From the NCBI GenBank assembly GCA_003331545.1, contig QOPC01000006.1, positions 1-37,147 on the forward strand: 37,147 nt of DNA, in the 5' to 3' direction. Origin of the DNA: SAR86 cluster bacterium. Its GTDB lineage: Bacteria > Pseudomonadota > Gammaproteobacteria > Magnimaribacterales > D2472. Both the position numbers and the translations under genes were made by a program. The notes under the pieces are model-generated. The model ran no database searches and was not told where the DNA came from. It saw nothing but the letters and a program-made list of their open reading frames with translations. Below, piece after piece: positions 32,576 through 34,311 of this stretch (the stretch's first letter is position 1; each line of letters begins with the position of its first letter).

Positions 32576-32600
32576 AAAATATACATCTTAACATAATAAT

Positions 32601-32617
32601 GTCATACTGTGTCATAC
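32601..32617. repeat. Direct repeat GTCATAC x2 at the gltB/gltD divergent junction
   Basis: GTCATAC occurs at 32601-32607 and 32611-32617, a 10-bp period or about one helical turn. It lies just outside the 23-bp spacer between the gltB and gltD frames and before the preferred gltD start. It could be an operator, a leftover of recombination, or chance. Confidence 0.35.
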
Positions 32618-32643
32618 ATACCACGCAGAATTTAGTATTTTTT

Positions 32644-34311
32644 ATGAGCACAAAAAATAAACAATATAAGATTGACAAAGGTCTTATGCTCTTTACTCAG
32701 CCCCGCTCTCCATTCTTTTATGGAAAAATAAGATTAAATAGAAAATATGTTACAAAATCATTTGCGCCAATTACTGATTTAGATGAAGCAAAGGTGATGT
32801 TGCTTGATTGGCAGAGAGAGCTTTTAAGTCAAACTACTATTCCTACTTCCACCATTTCATCTCCTGACAAGCACAAATCTCGCTCGGAATACATTGAACA
32901 TGCTCCAATTGAAAATGATTTCCAATTCTTGGAAGTTGGTAGATATGATCCCAACAAAAAAAATATAGAGGAAAGAAAGATTAACTTTGTTGAGATCTAT
33001 GGTGACTATAATCAACCAGAAGCTTCTAACCAATCTCATCGATGCTTAGATTGTGGAAATCCTTACTGCGAGTGGAAATGTCCAGTTCATAATTATATTC
33101 CTGATTGGTTAAAGCTTGTAAATGAAGGAAACATATTAGAAGCAGCAGACTTGTGTCATCAGACAAACTCCCTTCCTGAAATGTGTGGGAGAGTTTGTCC
33201 GCAAGATCGTTTATGTGAAGGAGCTTGCACTCTCAATGATGGCTTTGGTGCAGTCAGTATTGGTAATATTGAAAAATATATTACTGACAAAGCAATAGAT
33301 ATGGGTTGGAAGCCAGATCTGAGCAACAGAGAATGGACTTCTAAAAAAGTGGCAATTATTGGTGCTGGGCCAGCAGGCATTGGATGTGCAGATATTCTTA
33401 TAAGAGCAGGGATTAATTGTGATGTATATGACAAACAACCAGAAATAGGAGGTTTGCTTACTTTTGGAATACCTGAATTTAAACTCGAAAAAAGTGTGGT
33501 AAGAAGAAGGAGAAAAATCCTTGAGGATATGGGCATAAAGTTTCTGCTCAATAAAGAAATTGGAAAAGATGTTTCTTTTAAAAAACTTTACGATAGCTAT
33601 GATGCAGTATTTTTAGGCATGGGGACCTACACTTCGCTCGAAGGAGGCTTCCAAGGAGAAGATTTACCTCAGGCTCATAAGGCAATTGATTACCTAATTG
33701 GAAACACCAATCATCTTCTCAAATTCAAACAAAAAGAATCTGACTACATTAATTTTAAGAATAAAGATATCGTAGTTTTAGGTGGCGGAGATACTGCAAT
33801 GGATTGCAATAGAACTGCAATTAGACAAGGAGCTAACTCTGTTACTTGTTTATATAGAAGAGATGAAAAAAATATGCCCGGCTCTAGAAGAGAGGTTATC
33901 AATGCCAAAGAGGAAGGTGTGCAATTTGAATTTAATATTCAGCCAATTGAAATTATCGGAAAAGAAAGTGTTGAGGGTATTAAAACAATCAGAACAAAAC
34001 TGGGCGATCCAGATCAAAATGGCAGAAGAGTTCCAGTTCCAATTCCTGGTAGTGAAAAAATATATCCAGCTGATGAAGTTGTAGTAGCCTTTGGCTTTAG
34101 AGCTAATCCAGCTAACTGGTTTGAAGAATTTAATATTAAAATTAATAACAATGGATTGGTTTTAGCGCCTGAAAAACAAGAACTGAAATTCCAAACATCT
34201 AATCCAAAAATATTTTCAGGCGGCGATATGGTTAGAGGCTCAGATCTTGTTGTTACTGCTATATGGGAAGGAAGAGAGGCAGCAAAAAGTATCGTTCAAT
34301 TTGTTTCATAG
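32644..34311 (+). CDS. gltD: Glutamate synthase small subunit with an integrase-like N-terminal extension
   Basis: NADPH-oxidising beta subunit of glutamate synthase. From about F108 of the ORF-track frame it aligns with E. coli Glt[22 protein letters not shown], the Fe-S cysteines [17 protein letters not shown] and [15 protein letters not shown], the FAD loop [13 protein letters not shown] and the NADPH loop [12 protein letters not shown]. Before that lie 92-107 residues not found in ordinary GltD. They include [20 protein letters not shown] and [16 protein letters not shown], which resemble the beta-strand/helix N-terminal domain of tyrosine integrases. The frame opens at 32599, but M16 (32644) is the more natural start; neither has a Shine-Dalgarno. 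No usable start exists near residue 108, so the extension is probably translated. hemE follows directly. Confidence 0.9.

Follow-up and report, generated by a model that had tools for sequence, protein, structure and literature searches.

What is the extra N-terminal part of the glutamate synthase small subunit encoded at this locus, where does it come from and what does it do? The window, meaning the whole stretch of DNA analyzed here, comprises 37,147 nucleotides from a SAR86 cluster bacterium with a 0.86 Mb genome (71% complete). Its gltD open frame spans 32599–34311 and, as the original prediction had it, places about 92–107 additional residues ahead of GltD. From the motif alone, these residues had been compared with the N-terminal region of tyrosine integrases, the fusion had been called a chimera, and an inert, a structural and a regulatory role had all been left open.

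The extended gltD frame and its conservation

The GltD core (32914–34311, + strand, stop codon included) belongs to the gamma class of GltD: the TIGR01318 (gltD_gamma) profile was covered from position 1 to 465 of 467 and scored 734 bits over frame residues 108–569, above the curated cut-off of 483. The core also matches Fer4_20 and Pyr_redox_2. On the other strand, gltB, named from its sequence and place, encodes the large subunit (28127–32575, − strand) and is divergent from gltD. The same divergent order, tested with the GltB N-terminus, is found in the loci of f1, our label for the SAR86 family of the window, of which 10 genera were covered. In SAR86 families f2–f4, gltB and gltD are adjacent and co-directional. 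The GltD of f2 and f3 loci L118–L125 is about 35–40% identical to that of the window and adjoins the preceding gene in the same direction, which suggests a different glutamate synthase lineage inside the same order.

Comparison with GltD of relatives showed that the extension is common to about 40 f1 loci from 10 genera and is absent from gltD of f2–f4 and of the other Gammaproteobacteria compared (e.g. Pseudomonas and Halomonas). It is thus fixed across a whole bacterial family, and the idea of a one-off chimera does not hold. The f1 loci share one layout, with an M or V start, a conserved domain running from KNKQY...SPYFYGKIR to EAK..LY.WR.EL, a variable linker and then the normal GltD beginning. 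The start that relatives share is M16 (position 32644), where translation most likely begins. The extension predicted originally is therefore real, but its claimed start at 32599 is not retained, since the first 15 codons are not conserved among relatives; the ATG at 32599 falls inside a conserved DNA repeat (ATGTCATAC...). The lack of an alternative start near the normal GltD N-terminus was confirmed, the last in-frame ATG or GTG being extension codon 51 (0-based from M16).

Across aligned relatives the extension is 49–83% identical, and dN/dS between the window domain and the other loci is 0.01–0.26 where computable, with synonymous sites near saturation. Domain residues are near-invariant over the 10 genera while the linker varies. 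The structure prediction proposed as a check gave a confident AF2 fold, a compact beta4-alpha domain with pLDDT around 90 over residues 11–60, followed by a linker of low confidence (pLDDT < 50, residues 64–103) that leads to the GltD core. Given this identity, the dN/dS values and the confident fold, the extension is not a product of chance; in f1 genomes it is conserved and evolves under purifying selection. Counted from the conserved start, residues 1–62 (32644–32829, + strand) form the domain, as delimited by conservation, model and homology, and residues 63–90 (32830–32913, + strand) form a linker of variable length that is probably flexible.

One candidate extended gltD, L045, was rejected as its frame opens 22 codons ahead of the core. 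At another locus (L222, genome G442) the gltD domain is split over two frames with the upstream repeat intact, reflecting either an ongoing loss or a fault in the assembly.

An integrase N-terminal domain and the repeat before gltD

The guess of an integrase N-terminal domain was borne out by profile homology. A profile built from gltD extensions only and one built from integrase N-termini only aligned with an hhalign probability of 96% (E 4.7e-9), a check that is independent of profile iteration. Further proteins from this bacterial order matched the gltD-only profile, and the profile iterated with them reached a complete tyrosine integrase, L220 (E 3e-13), encoded in a genome of SAR86 family f3; this integrase carries SAM-like integrase domains and has a tRNA-Phe adjoining it. 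With the next profile, run on 350 genomes of the class, and a wider one, run on 399 genomes of the phylum, the matches listed were tyrosine integrases or truncated integrase-like frames, the sole exception being one cytochrome b fusion. Integrases were called by size and catalytic motif, and three of them also by Pfam. Most of the weak class matches of the narrow gltD-only profile lay in short or interrupted frames; three weak matches (L223–L225) were rejected as noise.

By sequence comparison, the extension is a homolog of the N-terminal (arm-type) domain of tyrosine integrases. In the full gltD frame, neither the core-binding (SAM-like) nor the catalytic integrase domain gave a Pfam match, in agreement with the predicted lack of a catalytic domain, and the remainder is GltD; therefore only the head of an integrase is present, not an integrase. 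Family libraries (Pfam, PHROGs and NCBIfam) gave weak matches, of which Arm-DNA-bind_3 (E 0.056) and DUF6538 (E 0.0035) were the strongest, though neither reached its cut-off; with the window's extension by itself as query, Pfam reported no family up to E 10. A PDB sequence search returned no meaningful match and hence no solved structure related by sequence. Foldseek found no significant structural relative, BFVD included; its fourth-ranking match was the AP2 structure 6sy0 (E 0.72), so that an AP2-like fold is suggested only tentatively. The N-terminal domain of the integrases themselves (L270–L283, L314–L342) likewise matches no Pfam family above cut-off, and sequence searching found no solved structure for it. 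A phage or viral source was considered and rejected, viral-contig scans and phage tblastn having given no convincing relative. No tRNA, sought as a trace of an integrated element, was found in the window.

Between the divergent gltB and gltD lies a tandem direct repeat, TGTCATAC-n2-TGTCATAC, which in the window reads TGTCATAC-TG-TGTCATAC (32600–32617, + strand; half-sites 32600–32607 and 32610–32617). Its 10-bp period, one helical turn, is that of short gene-proximal repeats of the arm-type-site kind, and we regard it as a candidate operator or arm-type site. It is the single match in the window, where 0.06 would be expected even allowing 3 mismatches. Repeat columns are 95% conserved over 10 genera compared to 57–61% in the flanking 30 bp on each side, making it an operator-like conserved candidate site in gltD's own promoter region. 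No f1 genome has more than one exact copy of the repeat, and every such copy lies next to the extended gltD; 24 genomes of f2–f4 have none. One f1 genome (G034) has it with a single mismatch, and four (G003, G008, G012 and G025) have no exact repeat, the gltD start not having been recovered in these. A shared regulon using the exact repeat was rejected, as no exact copies lie elsewhere.

The repeat overlaps the −35 element of a possible gltB promoter (32578–32605, − strand), a consensus match made of ATGACA (32605–32600, within the repeat), 16 nt and TATATT; 3 such promoter matches were found compared to 1.2 expected by chance. Part of the repeat's conservation could therefore be promoter conservation.

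The same domain and its repeats on other enzymes

The domain is also present at the N-terminus of the Rieske protein PetA in SAR86 family f4 (L187–L194, L196–L198). Immediately ahead of the petA ATG stands an inverted repeat, TTTGAACA-n9/10-TGTTCAAA; a second, wider-spaced TTTGAACA/TGTTCAAA copy lies upstream, with a TATAAT-like sequence between the two. All 14 fused f4 genomes have both the domain and the inverted repeat and all 5 unfused ones have neither, the pattern occurring once per fused genome; in the unfused genomes only a short distance separates petA from the stop codon before it.

An indolepyruvate:ferredoxin oxidoreductase-like gene (POR, TPP_enzyme_C) carries the domain in G006 and G014 (L195 and L221), the only two among the genomes sampled to do so, with ATACACA-type repeats next to the start. 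Its unfused homologs in G036 and G002 begin at the preceding stop codon and lack the repeats. Outside SAR86, in four genomes near 1 Mb from family f42, the domain precedes cytochrome b (petB; loci L274 and L284–L287) and TTACACA-type repeats lie in the gap after petA, while in unfused genomes of the same f42 genus petB follows a few nt behind the petA stop without repeats. Since fused genomes have both and their unfused relatives neither, domain and repeats were gained or lost together, although counts over relatives are non-independent events. Each of the four enzyme genes has different repeats. The generalization that all targets are Fe-S enzymes was dropped, cytochrome b also being a target.

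Similar repeats accompany the integrases. The L220 integrase has TAACACA/TGTGTTA repeats between the tRNA-Phe and its start codon. With the HDLRH type set aside, 25 related integrase loci were compared, and in 9 of them the 160 nt upstream contain a 6-mer repeated directly at a spacing of exactly 11 bp, compared to 1.1 expected (0/300 shuffles). No other spacing gave a similar peak. Of the HDLRH-type integrases, 2 of 16 have the 11-bp repeat. These upstream repeats look like the arm-type sites of the integrase domain.

In a tree of 68 domains, those of gltD, petA and the oxidoreductase fall into one group apiece, and the three groups cluster with L220 (97/97); the petB domain joins other integrases (96/87). 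With 63 columns the tree is weak; it suggests at least two captures of the domain. For the three SAR86 targets, the domain may have been captured separately each time, or captured once and then handed on. Prophage integrases associated with a tRNA are known to repress themselves where their sites overlap the promoter of their gene (PMC2951348); therefore, losing the remainder of such an integrase and joining a host gene could, by analogy, yield a self-regulating enzyme in one step. On balance we favor the reading that the arm-type sites of an integrase, with the domain that binds them, constitute a portable autoregulation cassette, captured at least twice and perhaps four times before core redox genes (gltD, petA, petB and indolepyruvate oxidoreductase) of small-genome bacteria, each enzyme thereby becoming its own single-target regulator.

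A probable regulatory role for the fused domain, its alternatives and known systems

Because an integrase DNA-binding head is combined with a matching repeat before the gene, GltD probably controls its own gene. We consider it quite likely that, with a captured arm domain and a promoter-proximal repeat, GltD binds TGTCATAC-n2-TGTCATAC and represses gltB and gltD. The homology of the domain and its co-occurrence with the repeat were observed directly; DNA binding and repression are what we infer from them. An arm-type domain of a tyrosine integrase would have been captured onto gltD together with an arm-site-like repeat. The linker-tethered domains would occupy the half-sites, one each, one helical turn apart on the same face of the helix, and bound GltD would hinder RNA polymerase, so that both genes would be repressed. 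GltD in excess over GltB, or not taken up by it, might be the natural signal, and the system might thus sense either unassembled subunit or metabolic state. PetA and PetB are, like GltD, subunits of a complex; because the oxidoreductase, in contrast, is one large polypeptide, the sensing of subunits is just a suggestion. For PetA and cytochrome b, which reside in the membrane, DNA binding would need a tethered or nascent state. Among the three roles left open originally, the private operator-like repeat and the three further sets of enzyme, domain and repeat favor the regulatory one.

The main mechanistic rival is control at the RNA level, in which the domain would bind to the repeats as they occur in the leader of its own mRNA, blocking translation initiation. 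The repeats do lie 4–50 nt from the start codons and abut the petA ATG, small alpha-beta domains of this kind can bind RNA, and double-stranded-RNA-binding domains are among the insignificant Foldseek matches. We nevertheless hold it to be improbable: the domain is related to integrase N-termini, which are described as partnering with arm sites on DNA (PMC2951348), and spacings of 10, 11 and 21–22 bp, about one or two helical turns, suit DNA. Moreover, the distal petA copy is upstream of the TATAAT-like sequence, and Rfam gave no family at the repeat, its one sub-threshold match lying elsewhere.

The repeat might instead be an ordinary promoter element or the site of a trans-acting regulator, with the GltD domain otherwise employed (e.g. 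structurally) and the two kept together by descent. Its overlap with the possible gltB −35 element would agree with this, as would the common ancestry of the f1 genomes, which reduces the co-occurrence to few events. Such an arrangement appears unlikely given that f1 genomes have no other exact copy and that four genes each gained the domain along with repeats, the repeat differing from gene to gene. Still more doubtful, and very improbable in our judgment, is that the extension is the remnant of a decayed integrase which provides a promoter and a start codon and is merely tolerated. The insertion signature, a gap and a domain between once-adjacent genes, fits a decayed element, and so would the frame-broken domain of G442 unless it is an assembly error. 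Against this stand the low dN/dS, the near-invariant residues in 10 genera despite a variable linker, the conserved repeats and the recurrence on four enzymes. We therefore retain autoregulation by GltD through DNA binding as the preferred reading.

If this reading is true, one route to new bacterial regulators is that the front end of a dead integrase is kept with its binding sites and a metabolic gene is added. It would also suggest how genes of nitrogen assimilation and complex III are controlled in abundant small-genome marine bacteria. The natural pairs of domain and site, with their fused and unfused sister genomes, offer material for specificity tests.

The proposed ancestral arrangement is that of a self-repressed integrase such as IntS of KplE1, whose N-terminal domain binds arm-type sites overlapping its own promoter, beside a tRNA (PMC2951348). 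Unlike in IntS, the domain in GltD has lost its core-binding and catalytic partners and is part of a host enzyme, and no tRNA was found in the window. Host use of a tyrosine-recombinase DNA-binding domain is described for the ALOG domains of plants; these are XerC/D-like N-terminal domains of developmental regulators, as opposed to a fusion to a metabolic enzyme (PMC3537659). A normal gltD_gamma protein (TIGR01318) has the same complete core as in the window, begins just before NDFQFL and lacks the domain. In the open-access literature searched, no earlier description of such fusions between an integrase domain and an enzyme was found.

The putA and putP genes have a divergent layout. Trifunctional PutA is a metabolic flavoenzyme whose N-terminal DNA-binding domain represses its own regulon (PMC5293562). 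The GltD fusion is comparable in that a conserved domain of DNA-binding type, so classed by homology, sits at the N-terminus of an intact enzyme, and by analogy its working principle would resemble that of PutA, with an as yet undescribed source of the domain. The enzymes differ, and the PutA domain is of the ribbon-helix-helix type as opposed to the integrase N-terminal type in GltD. Unlike in PutA, the site in the GltD system appears to have arrived with the domain.
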